From contig NZ_JAJOIL010000018.1 in assembly GCF_021209385.1 (NCBI RefSeq), forward strand, positions 1 through 64,000: a DNA stretch of 64,000 nucleotides, in the 5' to 3' direction. This stretch comes from Seleniivibrio sp. GTDB taxonomy: Bacteria > Chrysiogenota > Deferribacteres > Deferribacterales > Geovibrionaceae. The stretch's first letter is position 1. Each line of letters opens with the position of its first letter. The notes beneath the pieces are model-generated. The model ran no database searches and was not told the DNA's origin. It saw nothing but the letters and a program-made list of their open reading frames with translations. Made by a program: the position numbers and the translations under genes. Positions 3,008-38,429 of the stretch are shown here, piece by piece.

Positions 3008-6000
3008 TTGGCTAAGAGAACAGACATTAAGTCTATCATGATAATAGGTTCCGGACCTATCGTCATCGGACAGGCATGCGAATTTGACTATTCGGGAACT
3101 CAGGCTGTAAAAGCACTGAAAGAAGAGGGTTACAGAGTTATCCTTATCAACTCTAACCCCGCTACCATCATGACAGATCCCGAAATAGCCGATGCTACAT
3201 ACATCGAACCCCTTAACGTTGAGATGGCTGAAAAAGTCATTGCTAAGGAGCGACCCGACGCAATTCTGCCCACTGTCGGCGGACAGACTGCACTTAACCT
3301 TGCGAAAGACCTTCATGCCGCAGGCGTTCTGGATAAATACAACGTCGAACTTATCGGCGCTAAAATTGATGCCATCGACAAGGCGGAAGACAGAGAACTG
3401 TTCAAACAGGCAATGAAAAAGATTGGGCTGACATTGCCCGAAAGTTACGTCGTCAATACATATCAGGATGCACTTGACTGCATTGACAAAATTGGCTTCC
3501 CCGCAATCATCCGCCCCTCGTTCACACTCGGCGGAACAGGCGGAAACGTTGCCTATAACATGGAAGAGTATAAAGAATATGTTGAGTGGGGGCTTGAAGC
3601 CTCACCTGTTACGGAAATTCTGGTTGAAGAATCCGTTCTCGGCTGGAAAGAGTACGAACTTGAGGTTATGCGCGACCTTAATGACAACGTTGTTATCATC
3701 TGCTCCATCGAAAACATAGACGCAATGGGCGTTCACACAGGAGACAGTATCACCGTTGCTCCCGCCCAGACGCTCACCGACAAAGAATATCAGATCATGC
3801 GTAACGCCGCCATCGCCGTTATCCGCGAGATAGGTGTTGATACGGGCGGTTCAAATGTCCAGTTTGCCGTTGACCCCAAAACCGGCAAACAGATCATCAT
3901 CGAAATGAACCCCAGAGTTTCCAGAAGCTCCGCTCTTGCATCAAAAGCCACAGGCTTCCCCATTGCAAAAATAGCGGCAAAGCTGGCTGTAGGCTACACT
4001 CTGGACGAACTTAAAAACGATATTACCCTTAAGACCCCAGCGTCTTTTGAACCGACAATAGACTACTGTGTAACCAAATACCCCAGATTTACTTTTGAAA
4101 AATTCCCCGGTGCTGACAACACACTGACAACTCAGATGAAATCCGTAGGCGAGGCTATGGCTATCGGCAGAACTTTCAAAGAGTCCATCCAGAAGGCGAT
4201 CAGCTCTCTTGAAATTGGAAAGTCCGGTTTTGATGAGGTTTTCAGCGACGAAGAGCGTAAAACAGAAGCCGCCATTGAGCAAATTAAAGCATTCCTCAGA
4301 CGCCCCACAGCAGAGCGTATGTGGTATGTGGGCGAGGCTTTCAGAGCCGGATTCTCCGTTGCAGACGTTCACGAACTCTGCTTCATCGATCCGTGGTTCC
4401 TCGACAACATCAAACAGATAATAGATTTTGAATCTGAACTTAAAAAAATATCAATATCATCAATAGATGATGCAATGTTTCTTAAAGCAAAACAACTTGG
4501 TTTCAGTGATAAACGACTTGCAAAACTCATGAATTGCACTGAACTTGATGTTTGGGAGAAAACAAGAGGCAAAGCGGTCTATAAACGCGTGGATACATGC
4601 GGTGCCGAGTTTGAATCTTTCACTCCATATCTGTACAGCACATATGAAAAAGAGTGTGAAGCAGAACCCACTGATAGGAAAAAGATAATGATACTCGGCG
4701 GCGGTCCAAACCGTATCGGTCAGGGTATAGAGTTTGACTACTGCTGTGTTCATGCCTCATTCGCTCTGGAAGAGATGGGATTTGAAACTATCATGGTGAA
4801 CTGTAACCCTGAGACGGTTTCAACCGACTACGACACTTCCGACAGGCTCTATTTTGAACCCCTTACAAGAGAGCATGTCTTAAACATTGTAGATAAAGAA
4901 AAACCTTTCGGCGTTATCGTGCAGTTCGGCGGTCAGACCCCCCTTAAACTGGCTGTACCGCTGGAAAAAGCAGGCGTTCCGATTCTGGGAACGTCACCCG
5001 ACAGCATCGACATGGCGGAAGACAGGGAACGCTTCAAAGACCTGATAACCAGACTGAACATCAAACAACCGCCCAACGGCATCGCAAAGAACGCGGAGGA
5101 TGCGTTCAGAATAGCCGAGGAAATAGGGTATCCCGTTGTTGTACGCCCCTCATACGTTCTCGGCGGTCGCGCAATGGAGATAGTTTATGACACCGAATCA
5201 CTCCAGAACTATATGGTGTACGCGGTGAAAGCCAGCGAGGAACACCCTGTTCTGATAGACAAATATCTTCAGCATGCAACCGAGGTGGACGTTGACTCCA
5301 TCAGCGACGGCGAGATAACTGTCATCGGTTCAATCATGCAGCATATTGAGGAAGCGGGAGTTCACTCCGGCGACTCTGCATGCTCCATTCCGTCCAGAAC
5401 CATAAGCGATTCCGTACGCGCGAAACTTCTTGAACATACCAGAAATATCGCGAAAGAGCTTAAAGTTATCGGTTTGATGAACATCCAGTATGCCATCAAG
5501 GACGAAGAGATATATATGCTTGAGGTCAATCCCAGAGCATCCAGAACTATTCCCTATGTCAGCAAGACAATAGGTATCCCTCTTGCGAAAATGGCGGCAA
5601 AAGTCATGGCTGGCGCAAAACTGAAAGACCTAGGATTTACCAAAGAGGTGGATATCAACTACTTTACTGTTAAAGAGTCTGTATTCCCGTTCGTAAAATT
5701 CCCCGGAACCGACCTTGTTCTTGGACCGGAAATGAAATCCACTGGTGAGGTAATGGGCATCGACTCGCACTTTGGAAGTGCATTTTACAAAGCACAGATA
5801 GCCGCAGGCAATAAACTGCCCAAAAGCGGTAACGTGTTCATAAGCGTTAAGGATTCCGTTAAATCTGATATCCTTGGTGTTGCAAGAGAACTTGTTAAAA
5901 CGGGCTTCAAACTGGTTTCAACATCGGGAACATATAACTTCCTGCGCGAAAACGGGCTTGAGGTGGAAAAACTTGCAAAAGTGCACGAAGGCATAAGACC

Positions 6001-26865: not shown

Positions 26866-27636
26866 TTAGAACATGAATGCCGTAAGTATATAGTCAAAAA
26901 TAAGAATCAGCACACAAGCCATAACGACCGATTCTGTTGTGGCCCGTCCGACACCCTCTGCGCCGCCGCGGGTCATAAATCCTTTGTAACAGCCGACAAG
27001 CGTAACTATACCGCCGAAAACAAGGGATTTCATCATTCCGTTGGCAAAGTCGTCAAACTCTATGTAAGTATACATGTAATCAAGATAAAGGGTCTTGTTG
27101 ATACCAAGAACCTTGATACTCACCAGATAACCGCCCACAACACCGCAAAGTACAGTAATAGCATTCAGCATGGGCATAACAATAAGTCCGGCAAGTATTC
27201 GCGGTACGAAAAGATAATGAACAGGGTCAACAGCCATTGCGTTCAGTGCATCCACCTGTTCTGTAACTTTCATGGTGCCTATCTCCGCAGTGATTGCAGA
27301 ACCGGCGCGAGCGGCAACCATTATTGCCGAAAGCACGGGACCCAGCTCTCTTGCCATGGCAAGGGCTACCACTGTTCCGACAAGCTGGTCGGCTCCGAAT
27401 TTATGGAAGCCAATATAGCTTTGGAACGCGAATACCATGCCGGTGAAACTTCCTGTCAGTATTATAACCGACAATGAGTTAGCACCTATAAACTCTATCT
27501 GTTTTAAAAGAAGTTTTGTCCGGAACGGCTTTTTAAACATTAGTTTAATTGTTGAGTAAAATAAAAGAGCCATCTGCCCTGCTACTTCAACGAAACTTAC
27601 AAGCGGTCTCCCGAAAAAACTTAATACTCTTTCCAT
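26866..27636 (-). CDS. mlaE: Phospholipid transport permease MlaE
   Basis: A 256-residue permease with the MlaE signature VALAMARELGPVLSAIMVAARAGSAI followed by AEIGTMKVTEQVDAL. It forms the membrane core with MlaF and MlaD. A longer reading from 27687 overlaps alr by 43 bases. The ATG at 27636 lies just after the alr stop and has AAAGGGG (27640-27646) at the right distance, so I prefer it. Confidence 0.95.
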   Translation of the reverse strand: MERVLSFFGRPLVSFVEVAGQMALLFYSTIKLMFKKPFRTKLLLKQIEFIGANSLSVIILTGSFTGMVFAFQSYIGFHKFGADQLVGTVVALAMARELGPVLSAIMVAARAGSAITAEIGTMKVTEQVDALNAMAVDPVHYLFVPRILAGLIVMPMLNAITVLCGVVGGYLVSIKVLGINKTLYLDYMYTYIEFDDFANGMMKSLVFGGIVTLVGCYKGFMTRGGAEGVGRATTESVVMACVLILIFDYILTAFMF

Positions 27637-27644
27637 AAACCCCT

Positions 27645-28733
27645 TTAGCCTAGATAAATTCTTGGTATCCTGTCTGAAATTCCGCACAGCATTTCATATG
27701 AGATAGTGTTTGCCCACCCTGCCCACATGTCTGCGGTGATATTTTCTCCCATGATTTCAACCCTCATTTCACTGTTCAAGTCTACATTTGAGAGGTCTAT
27801 CATGGTCATGTCCATGCACACTGTGCCTATTACAGGGCATTTAACGCCGTTCACAAGCATGTGGCTGACATTTGAGAAACAGCGCTGATAACCGTCGGCA
27901 TAGCCTATCGGTACAACACCGTATGTCATATCTTTTTCGGCGAAGAACCGTCTGTTATAACTGACCGCTTCGCCTTTTTTTATCTGTTTAACATGAACAA
28001 CTTTTGAATAGATGCTCATTACTTTTCTGAGTGTAACATTATTTTCGCCGTAAAGGTAGCCGTAAAGCATCAGCCCCGGTCTGGCGAGTGAAAATTTATT
28101 GTTAAAAGCGGAAACACCTGACGAGTTAAAAAGGCTCGTATTACAGGTTATACCGTTATCAACAATATATTTTTCAAATATCTTTATCTGTTCTCCGGTA
28201 TATTCCGCGTCGCTGTCGGATGAGGAAAGGTGGCTCATCACATGGACAGGTCGGAGGTTTTCATACCTTGAAACGAAATCGCTGAAAGGCATTTCGGGTG
28301 AAAACCCGAGCCTGTTCATGCCCGTGTCAATCTTGACAGACACATATGCCGTCCGGTTCATTTTTCCAAGGAAATTATTGAAGGCAGACGCAAATTTCTC
28401 GTCAACCATGTTGAGGACGAGGTTGTATTCCAGAACGTCGTCGAAGAAATCACCGTCGACGTAGCCGAGGATGAATATCATCGGTTCACTGCCGAGGTAT
28501 TCGCGCAGTATCATGCCTTCAAGGATGGTAGCCACGCCGAATTTTTTGACCTTGTGTTTCTCATAGGCATACGCGGCAAGCTTCATAGCTCCGTGTCCGT
28601 ATCCGTCTGCTTTCACGATGGCGATGATGTCCGTGCCTGCTTTCGCCCTCGCCTGTTCGATGTTGTGACCGAACGCCTGAAGGTCAATCTCGGCGTATGT
28701 CGGTCTCAGTGATTTGATCTTAGTCTTTGTCAT
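27645..28733 (-). CDS. alr: Alanine racemase
   Basis: Alr makes D-alanine for peptidoglycan using PLP. The 362-residue fold-III enzyme shows the PLP lysine in AIVKADGYGHGAMKLA (about residues 39-54), the barrel motif KIDTGMNRLGF, and a C-terminal domain with the catalytic tyrosine region KGEAVSYNRRFFA and PIGYADGYQRCFS. Its start overlaps the prfB stop by 14 bases. It is in a long housekeeping operon ahead of mlaE. Confidence 0.95.
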   Translation of the reverse strand: MTKTKIKSLRPTYAEIDLQAFGHNIEQARAKAGTDIIAIVKADGYGHGAMKLAAYAYEKHKVKKFGVATILEGMILREYLGSEPMIFILGYVDGDFFDDVLEYNLVLNMVDEKFASAFNNFLGKMNRTAYVSVKIDTGMNRLGFSPEMPFSDFVSRYENLRPVHVMSHLSSSDSDAEYTGEQIKIFEKYIVDNGITCNTSLFNSSGVSAFNNKFSLARPGLMLYGYLYGENNVTLRKVMSIYSKVVHVKQIKKGEAVSYNRRFFAEKDMTYGVVPIGYADGYQRCFSNVSHMLVNGVKCPVIGTVCMDMTMIDLSNVDLNSEMRVEIMGENITADMWAGWANTISYEMLCGISDRIPRIYLG

Positions 28734-36650: not shown

Positions 36651-36729
36651 CAAAAAAAATCCCGGTTACATGCTTTAAGGGGGGAGGAGGGATAAAGCAT
36701 AGAAATAACCGGGCAATAGTCTGTTTGGT
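36651..36729 (-). ncRNA. Candidate small RNA with anti-Shine-Dalgarno loop
   Basis: The transcript would run from about 36729 to 36651. It consists of a roughly 16-base single-stranded 5' end, then a two-tier hairpin: outer stem CCCGGTTA/TAACCGGG (36668-36661 with 36713-36706) and inner stem ATGCTTTA/TAAAGCAT (36700-36693 with 36677-36670). The 15-base apical loop reads TCCCTCCTCCCCCCT on the minus strand. A run of eight T follows directly, so the hairpin also acts as terminator. A near-consensus promoter precedes it. The CCTCC in the loop is complementary to Shine-Dalgarno sequences, suggesting a trans-acting translational repressor (inference). Confidence 0.6.
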
Positions 36730-36735
36730 ATCTTT

Positions 36736-36763
36736 ATTATAACCTTCTTTATGGAATTTTCAA
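36736..36763 (-). promoter_or_regulatory. Promoter of the candidate small RNA
   Basis: On the minus strand TTGAAA (36763-36758), a 16-base spacer and a perfect TATAAT (36741-36736). It lies downstream of the cimA terminator, so it drives a separate short unit. Confidence 0.7.
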
Positions 36764-36805: not shown

Positions 36806-36839
36806 AGAAAAAAGCCGCCCCCTTTGTGGAAGCGGCTTT
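36806..36839 (-). terminator. Terminator of the hom-cimA operon
   Basis: On the minus strand AAAGCCGC (36839-36832) pairs with GCGGCTTT (36818-36811) and runs into T-rich sequence (36813-36806), a few bases after the cimA stop. Confidence 0.8.
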
Positions 36840-36845
36840 GCGTTA

Positions 36846-38429
36846 TTAGTTTGTACGCTCTTTATCTTTCATTAGTTTGTATTCAATCGAATCCATCAGC
36901 GCCTGATATGAGGCATCTACAATGTTTGCCGCAACGCCCACTGTTCCCCATGTACTGTCTTTATCTTTAGACTCGATAAGAACACGGGTTACAGATTCGG
37001 TCCCCTCGCCTGACGACAGGATGCGAACTTTATAGTCCACAAGTTCCATGTCAGCTATACGGGGATAAAATTTGGAAAGCGCTTTACGTACAGCTTTATC
37101 GAGTGCATTAACAGGACCGTTGCCCGCTGCGGCAGTATGTTCCTGCTCATCGCCGACAACAAGCATAACAGTAGCCTCCGCCAAAGGATTGTCATTGCTG
37201 CTGTTTTTCTCGTCGATAACTCTGTAGCTCATGGAATCGAAGAAAGGAGTGAAGGTTCCCATTGTCTTTCTCATGAGAAGTTCAAAGGAAGCTTCTGCGC
37301 CTTCATACTGAAAGCCTTTGTTTTCAAGCTCTTTCAGTCTGTCCACCACCGCATTCACCTTCGGATCGTTGCCGTCGATATCCAGACCGAAGTCTTTAGC
37401 CTTGTAAACAAGGTTGGACTTACCCGAAAGGTCGGAAAGCAGAACGCGTTGTTTATTTCCGACAAGTTCAGGTTCTATGTGTTCGTAAGTTCTGGCATTT
37501 TTAAGAATGGCGCTTACATGCACCCCGCCCTTGTGAGCGAACGCCGCGCGTCCGACATAAGGCTGATGGATGTTGTGTTTCAGGTTGCCAAGCTCGTTTA
37601 TATATCTGGATATAATGCGGAGTCTGTTCAGCTTGTCCGCGGGCACACATTCGTATCCGTATTTAATCTGGAGATTAGGTATAACGGAGCAGATGTTAGC
37701 GTTGCCGCATCTTTCACCGTAACCGTTTATTGTTCCCTGAACCTGAGTGATGCCGTTTATAACAGCCATAACGGAGTTGGCAACTGCGCAGTCGCTGTCG
37801 TTGTGGCAGTGGATACCCAGAGGATAGTCACCTGTCACCTCGCGAAGCTGACGGATGATATCCGCAAGTTCCTGAGGCATAGTGCCGCCGTTTGTGTCGC
37901 AGAGAATGATGCAGTCGGCTTTTGCATCCATAGCCGCCTTAACGGTTTTGATGGCATATTCTTTGTTTGCCTTGAAGCCGTCAAAGAAGTGTTCCGCATC
38001 ATAAAAAGCCTTGTCCACTTTGGACTTAAGATATGAAACGGAGTCATGGATTATCTCAAGGTTCTGCTCAAGTTCAATTTTAAGCGCCTCTGTAACGTGA
38101 AGATCCCATGTTTTACCGAATATGGTCAGGTTAGGAACTTCAGCTTCAAGGAGCGCCTGAATGTTTTCGTCGTTGTCACAGGTTCTTTTCGCACGTCTTG
38201 TGCTTCCGAACGCCGCAACATGGTCTATCGGTACGGAAGATTTTTTTACCTCACGGAAAAAGCCGATATCTCTGGGGTTGGAACCGGGCCAGCCGCCTTC
38301 GATATATCTGATGCCGAAATCGCAGAGTGCTTCGGCAATTTTCACTTTATCCGCTATGGTAAAGTTAACGTCCTCCGACTGAGTGCCGTCCCTCAGCGTG
38401 GTGTCGTATATCTCTATCTTTTTTGACAT
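36846..38429 (-). CDS. cimA: (R)-citramalate synthase
   Basis: CimA condenses acetyl-CoA with pyruvate to citramalate, giving a threonine-independent entry to isoleucine. The 527-residue protein has the DRE-TIM catalytic motif DTTLRDGTQSED at the N-terminus, the metal-binding HCHNDSDCAVAN, the GYGERCGNANICSV loop, and a C-terminal LeuA-type allosteric domain. The length and the GGWPGSNPRD motif fit the CimA type rather than isopropylmalate synthase. It is the last gene of hom-hsk-lysC-cimA. Confidence 0.93.
   Translation of the reverse strand: MSKKIEIYDTTLRDGTQSEDVNFTIADKVKIAEALCDFGIRYIEGGWPGSNPRDIGFFREVKKSSVPIDHVAAFGSTRRAKRTCDNDENIQALLEAEVPNLTIFGKTWDLHVTEALKIELEQNLEIIHDSVSYLKSKVDKAFYDAEHFFDGFKANKEYAIKTVKAAMDAKADCIILCDTNGGTMPQELADIIRQLREVTGDYPLGIHCHNDSDCAVANSVMAVINGITQVQGTINGYGERCGNANICSVIPNLQIKYGYECVPADKLNRLRIISRYINELGNLKHNIHQPYVGRAAFAHKGGVHVSAILKNARTYEHIEPELVGNKQRVLLSDLSGKSNLVYKAKDFGLDIDGNDPKVNAVVDRLKELENKGFQYEGAEASFELLMRKTMGTFTPFFDSMSYRVIDEKNSSNDNPLAEATVMLVVGDEQEHTAAAGNGPVNALDKAVRKALSKFYPRIADMELVDYKVRILSSGEGTESVTRVLIESKDKDSTWGTVGVAANIVDASYQALMDSIEYKLMKDKERTN

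Follow-up and report, generated by a model that had tools for sequence, protein, structure and literature searches.

A conserved single-hairpin RNA of Deferribacterales with a C-rich loop, probably a trans-acting antisense regulator of ribosome-binding sites

Small RNAs that use unpaired, C-rich sequences to recognize mRNAs have been described in several bacterial lineages. Examples are the cuckoo RNAs of alpha-proteobacteria (alpha-r14, including NfeR1), which are transcribed from a sigma-70 promoter and carry the ultraconserved unpaired loop motif CCUCCUCCC on stems that vary (PMC10746234, PMC7143759). Pairing of these RNAs with start regions, mostly those of transporter genes, has been predicted and in part proven (PMC10746234, PMC7143759). 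In Helicobacter pylori, the pairing region of RepG is the C/U-rich loop of its intrinsic terminator, and that stem-loop carries the activity (PMC8295292), whereas sX13 from Xanthomonas uses C-rich hairpin loops to repress mRNAs that carry G-rich (4G) motifs close to the start codon (PMC3771888). C-rich regions are also used for pairing by IsrR of Staphylococcus, which contacts ribosome-binding sites, and by FsrA of Bacillus, and succinate dehydrogenase is a standard target of such RNAs (PMC11257911, PMC5586341). Here we describe a hairpin RNA gene on the minus strand of a 64,000-nucleotide stretch of contig NZ_JAJOIL010000018.1 (hereafter the window) from Seleniivibrio sp., whose genome measures 2.9 Mb. 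The predicted transcript, of about 79 nucleotides (nt), extends from about position 36729 to 36652.

We assign a probability of roughly 0.72 to the interpretation that this locus is an autonomous gene for a trans-acting small RNA whose loop is antisense to the G-rich Shine-Dalgarno sites of selected mRNAs. In the mechanism proposed from sequence comparison, the RNA would be driven by its own promoter, and its single conserved hairpin would double as the intrinsic terminator. Two covarying stems would hold a pyrimidine-only loop open for pairing in trans with G-rich Shine-Dalgarno sites (RGGGGAGGA, GAGGAGGG), thereby blocking ribosome binding, while Hfq probably holds the oligo-U tail. The probable targets would include the start regions of sdhC and sdhB in the succinate dehydrogenase/fumarate reductase operon, such that central respiratory and uptake functions would be tuned down.

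Almost the whole transcript forms one two-tier hairpin with the pyrimidine-only loop UCCCUCCUCCCCCCU, followed by an A and eight U. Read along the minus strand, the 5' arm of the outer stem (CCCGGTTA, 36706..36713) covaries with the 3' arm at 36661-36668 and is followed by TTTCT (36701..36705), which is the longer side of an internal loop, and by the 5' arm of the inner stem (ATGCTTTA, 36693..36700). The C-rich loop (TCCCTCCTCCCCCCT, 36678..36692), the 3' arm of the inner stem (TAAAGCAT, 36670..36677), a single G and the 3' arm of the outer stem (TAACCGGG, 36661..36668) complete the structure. A preliminary description of this DNA had reported two perfect tiers of eight base pairs, a 15-base loop and eight T directly after the stem. 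The pairs, the loop length and the T tract are as described, but a 5:1 asymmetric internal loop lies between the tiers, and an A at 36660 precedes the terminator tail (36659-36652), which comprises 5-8 T in every homolog scored. The fold energy is -21.5 kcal/mol, compared with -8.6 +/- 2.3 for shuffled sequences (z = -5.6; 0/200 shuffles as good). Because the loop consists only of C and U, it cannot pair with itself. The orientation, which had originally been deduced from the presence of a T tract on the minus side alone, is also fixed by U.G pairs at columns 6/48 and 7/47 in relatives, since these would become A.C mismatches if read on the other strand.

Relatives are designated below by family (f1 to f10), by genus (g1 to g4), and by numbers for the genomes (G) and loci (L) compared. 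A covariance search of related genomes, as envisaged in the preliminary description, found the hairpin with covarying stems in 26 of the 46 genomes of the host's order. These representatives span six families, occur once per genome (each match better than 1e-7) and reach E values as low as 3e-18. The model, trained on 19 sequences, matched all genomes of f1 (12/12), f2 (4/4), f3 (3/3), f5 (2/2), f7 (3/3) and f8 (2/2), and it matched none in f4 (0/5), f6 (0/15), f9 or f10. One weak f6 match, in G016, was rejected as a plain terminator without the loop. A plain DNA search of 100 relatives likewise recovered the RNA from all 12 genomes of the host's family and from others of the order. Seleniivibrio, Denitrovibrio, Calditerrivibrio and several Deferribacteraceae or Deferribacterales metagenome-assembled genomes (MAGs) carry the RNA, and the host genome holds a single copy with no paralogs.

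The stems of these homologs have diverged in a manner that preserves pairing. By lineage, the outer stem reads CCCGGUUA/UAACCGGG, CCCGGCUA/UAGCCGGG, CCCGGUCA/UGACCGGG, CCCGGCUG/CAGCCGGG or CCCGGCUU/AAGCCGGG. Two-sided changes affect seven pairs and occupy 18 cells, versus 6.6 +/- 2.0 after shuffling (0/500 as high), in an alignment that was fitted to the covariance model and therefore leans towards structure; an unfitted MAFFT alignment, used as a cross-check, agrees (15 two-sided cells, 0/500 shuffles). The covariation score of 0.199 falls to a maximum of 0.098 when pairing partners are slid out of register. The loop core (CCCUCCUCCCC; CCCTCCTCCCC on the minus strand of the window) is unchanged across f1, f3, f5, f7 and f8, and the loop of f2 is altered (CACCCUCCCCUCC or AUAAUCCUCCCC) and still C-rich. 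We are therefore nearly certain that this is a real conserved RNA.

Searches with Rfam 15 gave no match in the window at the gathering threshold, and the best relaxed matches at the locus scored 9.6 and 8 bits. Outside Deferribacterales, all matches from a pattern scan of 84,980 species were GC-rich or unrelated on other grounds. Among these was an intrinsic terminator in a gammaproteobacterial MAG (L092, ~3552-3604, minus strand) that has a similar C-rich loop (ACCCUCCUCCCCCUAG) on perfect stems of unrelated sequence. This terminator was not counted as a homolog, and it might be an independent case of the same design.

The promoter proposed for this RNA (TTGAAA, 16 bases, TATAAT) is indeed located past the terminator of the upstream gene cimA. 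Its -35 box (36758..36763) and -10 box (36736..36741), separated by 16 bases on the minus strand, match 11 of 12 consensus positions. Of six promoter-like sites within 1.5 kb, this one is the best; shuffled sequences yield 2.5 +/- 1.4 such sites. The same -35 box occurs in five genomes of the Seleniivibrio genus and in g2 and g3. From the promoter position we infer a transcript start near 36729, about 7 nt past the -10 box. Promoter position and sequence comparison together predict a single-stranded 5' tail (36714..36729); this tail varies between genera, which argues that the hairpin is the functional module.

Promoters are found 10-55 nt 5' of the hairpin in g1, g2, g3, f3, f5 and one f8 genome. 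However, inspection of the regions upstream of homologs revealed no convincing separate promoter in f7 or in two g4 genomes, and in f7 and part of g4 co-transcription with cimA followed by processing is possible. This observation bears on an alternative in which the RNA also acts in trans but has a dual source, being cut mainly from the 3' untranslated region of the cimA mRNA in f7, g3 and part of g4. This arrangement would fit the short distance from cimA to the hairpin in f7 and g3, as well as the weak promoters of f7 and of two genomes in g4. Nevertheless, the promoters of the lineages listed above are strong and belong to the RNA itself, and several lineages have no cimA upstream, so we judge this alternative to be rather improbable.

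Within the order, the occurrence of the RNA parallels that of the RNA chaperone Hfq. Canonical Hfq is encoded by the host (103.6 bits) and, across the order, by 26/26 RNA-bearing genomes and 0/20 RNA-less genomes. Features of Hfq-dependent small RNAs are likewise present, namely Hfq itself in the host and an oligo-U 3' end (5-8 U in homologs). In f9 and f10 Hfq is present but the RNA is absent; probably, then, the RNA either arose in the order or cannot be recognized beyond it. On these distributions, the odds that the RNA is Hfq-linked appear about even. The 20 genomes of f4 and f6 (e.g. G014 and G023) show an apparent loss of all Hfq-family proteins within one clade. A further Hfq-like gene was encountered at L157 1198-1722 (G000:C18, ~27480-28004), near a divergent dnaN-like gene. 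It encodes a 174-amino-acid protein with tandem Hfq-like domains, the second scoring 84.9 bits and the first 34.3; where both domains are detected the protein co-occurs with canonical Hfq, and f4 and f6 lack this protein.

Loop pairing was evaluated for start regions (-30..+3) in the host (722 genes) and in three relatives (336-340 genes apiece), drawn from ~0.86 Mb of host DNA (window included) and 0.4 Mb per relative, with start codons assigned by a simple script rather than by a trained gene caller. The preliminary description had envisaged a loop acting on many mRNAs through generic GGAGG sites. The antisense component of that idea is retained, but the mean affinity gives no sign of a general effect on mRNAs, and the loop more probably acts on a limited group of mRNAs whose Shine-Dalgarno sites are unusually rich in G than on every mRNA. 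When candidate targets were ranked with the loop as seed, as had also been proposed, sdhB placed 19/722, 8/338 and 1/340 in three genomes with the RNA and 69/336 in one without it. Among ortholog pairs of the RNA-bearing G000, G007 and G017 (n = 55, 110 and 48), sdhB took first place in every comparison, with sdhC next. Although sdhB was first noticed through G007, G009, G011 and G001, the 1/340 rank comes from G017, which is independent of that choice. The sdhB sites of RNA-bearing lineages are G-rich, with energies from -13.4 to -20 except in f5 (-11.4), and the AAGGAAGG-like sites of RNA-less f6 range from -9.4 to -11. The sdhC sites show the same trend in g1, g4, f7 and f3, and less so in f8.

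Several observations weigh against the proposed antisense regulator and its targets. The mean duplex energy of the loop over the 722 host start regions (-8.61 kcal/mol) barely exceeds that of the reversed loop (-8.47 kcal/mol). One RNA-less f4 genome has an sdhB site at -13.8, and the sdhC sites of g2, g3 and f5 are ordinary. With shuffled C-rich loops, sdhB still falls on average within the top 4-5%, and permutations give a better product than the true loop in 5%, 8% and 23% of cases (G017, G007 and G000), such that the true order wins weakly; permuted C-rich loops also favour the sdh sites because those sites are G-rich. Finally, f4 and f6 form one clade in the cimA tree (SH-aLRT support 99), which means that the RNA and Hfq were lost jointly once, and this single event leaves dependence unproven by co-loss alone.

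Near-exact complements of the loop (at most one mismatch) are not enriched in the host: they number 14, including the RNA's own locus, versus 15 for the reversed pattern, with only one located just upstream of a start (fecD-like, L115/L274), and GGGGAGG..ATG occurs 16 times versus 17 for a control pattern. An order-wide scan for GGGGAGGA gave an excess in G010 (30 versus 5) and none in G005 (34 versus 29), and these counts were not used as evidence. The genes livF (L285) and korB (L283) were set aside as conserved targets, since the GGGGAGG sites at their starts lie in the end of the upstream gene, where they encode YLGE and YIGEALK, and the G run may reflect the C-terminus of the upstream protein. 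G-rich sites can thus be conserved for protein reasons.

Despite these reservations, a trans-acting anti-Shine-Dalgarno loop is the best reading, which we infer from a pyrimidine-only, family-invariant sequence containing CCUCCU and CCUCCUCCC and from the presence of Hfq wherever the RNA occurs in the order. On the sequence comparisons, we consider it probable, by about three to one, that the loop is antisense to ribosome-binding sites. The identification of sdhCAB as a true target is tentative, and the case is weaker still for the other candidate mRNAs, which encode further respiratory proteins, 2-oxoacid oxidoreductases and ATP-binding cassette (ABC) transporters.

The loop could instead be a decoy that titrates a G-rich RNA or acts as a sponge for a protein, either a poly-C/pyrimidine binder or one involved in translation. 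Invariance of the whole loop over the order exceeds what a single mRNA site would demand, and the average affinity for start regions is not raised, both of which fit this alternative. However, we know of no such protein in these bacteria, and a sponge for CsrA would need GGA in its loop, which is present on the other strand only. Moreover, encounters with many mRNAs would place the same constraint on a loop, as in the cuckoo RNAs (PMC10746234). We therefore regard a decoy as unlikely.

The genomic context distinguishes an autonomous gene from a plain terminator. In the window, the RNA resides in the 195-base gap noted in the preliminary description, between a convergent C_GCAxxG_C_C redox gene (PF09719; 36204..36650, plus strand), whose presence beside the RNA is confined to genera g1 and g4, and cimA (HMGL-like/LeuA_dimer; 36846..38429, minus strand). 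The names of neighbouring genes are readings of their translations, save three genes tested with Pfam. The RNA is adjacent to cimA in f1 and f7 only; its neighbours are panC-panD and a hemerythrin gene in f8, genes for a YbgC-type thioesterase and an NlpC/P60 protein in f2, thioesterase and glycosyltransferase genes in f3, and unrelated genes in f5. This turnover of flanking genes indicates an autonomous RNA rather than a cimA terminator. Relatives that keep the flanking genes and lose the hairpin, which had been named as a finding that would speak against a free-standing gene, were looked for, and the opposite was seen: the hairpin is retained where its flanking genes are not. Together with covariation, the invariant loop and a terminator in every homolog, these changing neighbours strongly support the free-standing small RNA gene originally proposed.

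It could still be argued that the hairpin is merely the terminator of cimA or the end of the gene convergent with it, and that its C-rich loop is incidental. Its shape is that of a perfect intrinsic terminator, and in f7 and g3, where only ~70 nt separate the cimA stop from the hairpin and no separate terminator is seen, it may end cimA transcripts; f7 and the two g4 genomes that lack a convincing separate promoter point the same way. Against this, cimA in the window has its own terminator (36811..36839, minus strand) with a near-consensus promoter between it and the hairpin, hairpin and loop persist in f2, f3, f5 and f8 though cimA lies elsewhere, and the 15-nt loop is kept letter for letter as the stems change, unlike in plain terminators. 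Termination without regulation is thus very improbable. A cis-acting leader or attenuator, or a small protein gene, is the least credible alternative and already fails on distribution: the f2 hairpin does precede a same-strand gene and a 71-amino-acid minus-strand frame does start inside the window hairpin, but the downstream gene in the window is convergent, leaving nothing downstream in the same direction, and f3 and f7 preserve the base pairing without the ATG with which that frame begins. In f2 (L149 1501-1579 and L150 1501-1566), where the loop is altered, the hairpin ends 13-24 nt 5' of the NlpC/P60 gene, and there it might double as a leader.

The antisense regulator favoured here would be a new RNA family whose mode of action is already known. 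We found no small-RNA study of Deferribacterales in the open-access literature. A single-copy RNA with an invariant loop and covarying stems in six families offers a ready entry point for the order, and it presents an independent and unusually simple C-rich-loop design in which termination and targeting fall to one and the same hairpin. The joint loss of Hfq and the RNA in sister families also makes the order a natural setting for comparing start regions that coexist with the regulator against those that do not. More speculatively, and in our estimation doubtfully, this one-hairpin mimic of the 16S anti-Shine-Dalgarno sequence could govern respiration across the order as a master regulator tied to Hfq, acting on sdhCAB and related mRNAs. 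It would then be the first such regulator in the phylum and represent, in minimal form, a design at which alpha-proteobacteria, Xanthomonas, Helicobacter and staphylococci have arrived independently.

Each of the known systems shares part of this architecture. As in RepG, the predicted pairing region is the C/U-rich loop of a terminator hairpin, followed by eight T. Unlike RepG, whose target is a G-repeat in the tlpB mRNA, the loop has the CCUCCU anti-Shine-Dalgarno pattern, the host's family has Hfq, and the host belongs to a different phylum. The sX13 RNA differs in having three stem-loops with 4C/5C motifs and in being Hfq-independent, and no sequence kinship with it was seen. NrrF and RyhB compare with the iron-sparing RNAs FsrA and IsrR by function. 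The class of RyhB, FsrA and IsrR is Fur-controlled, and the link to sdh as a shared target is here a prediction: sdhB and sdhC head the sampled ortholog pairs, but shuffled C-rich loops rank them nearly as high.

Cuckoo RNAs provide the closest parallel, since the loop contains CCUCCUCCC, unpaired and invariant in the five families that share the loop core. The Rhizobiales RNAs, however, have three motif-bearing hairpins and often several gene copies, whereas the present RNA has one hairpin and one copy, its stems are related by descent, and it belongs to another phylum. Rfam gave no match at gathering or relaxed thresholds, which bears on alpha-r14 only if Rfam holds its model, and the pattern scan of the genome collection found true homologs only in Deferribacterales. 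On the features compared (one hairpin versus three, no detectable homology), the RNA falls outside the cuckoo family. Its proposed mode of action nonetheless resembles, without homology, those of sX13, RepG, IsrR/FsrA and the cuckoo RNAs, and the cuckoo loop motif is the nearest likeness of all.
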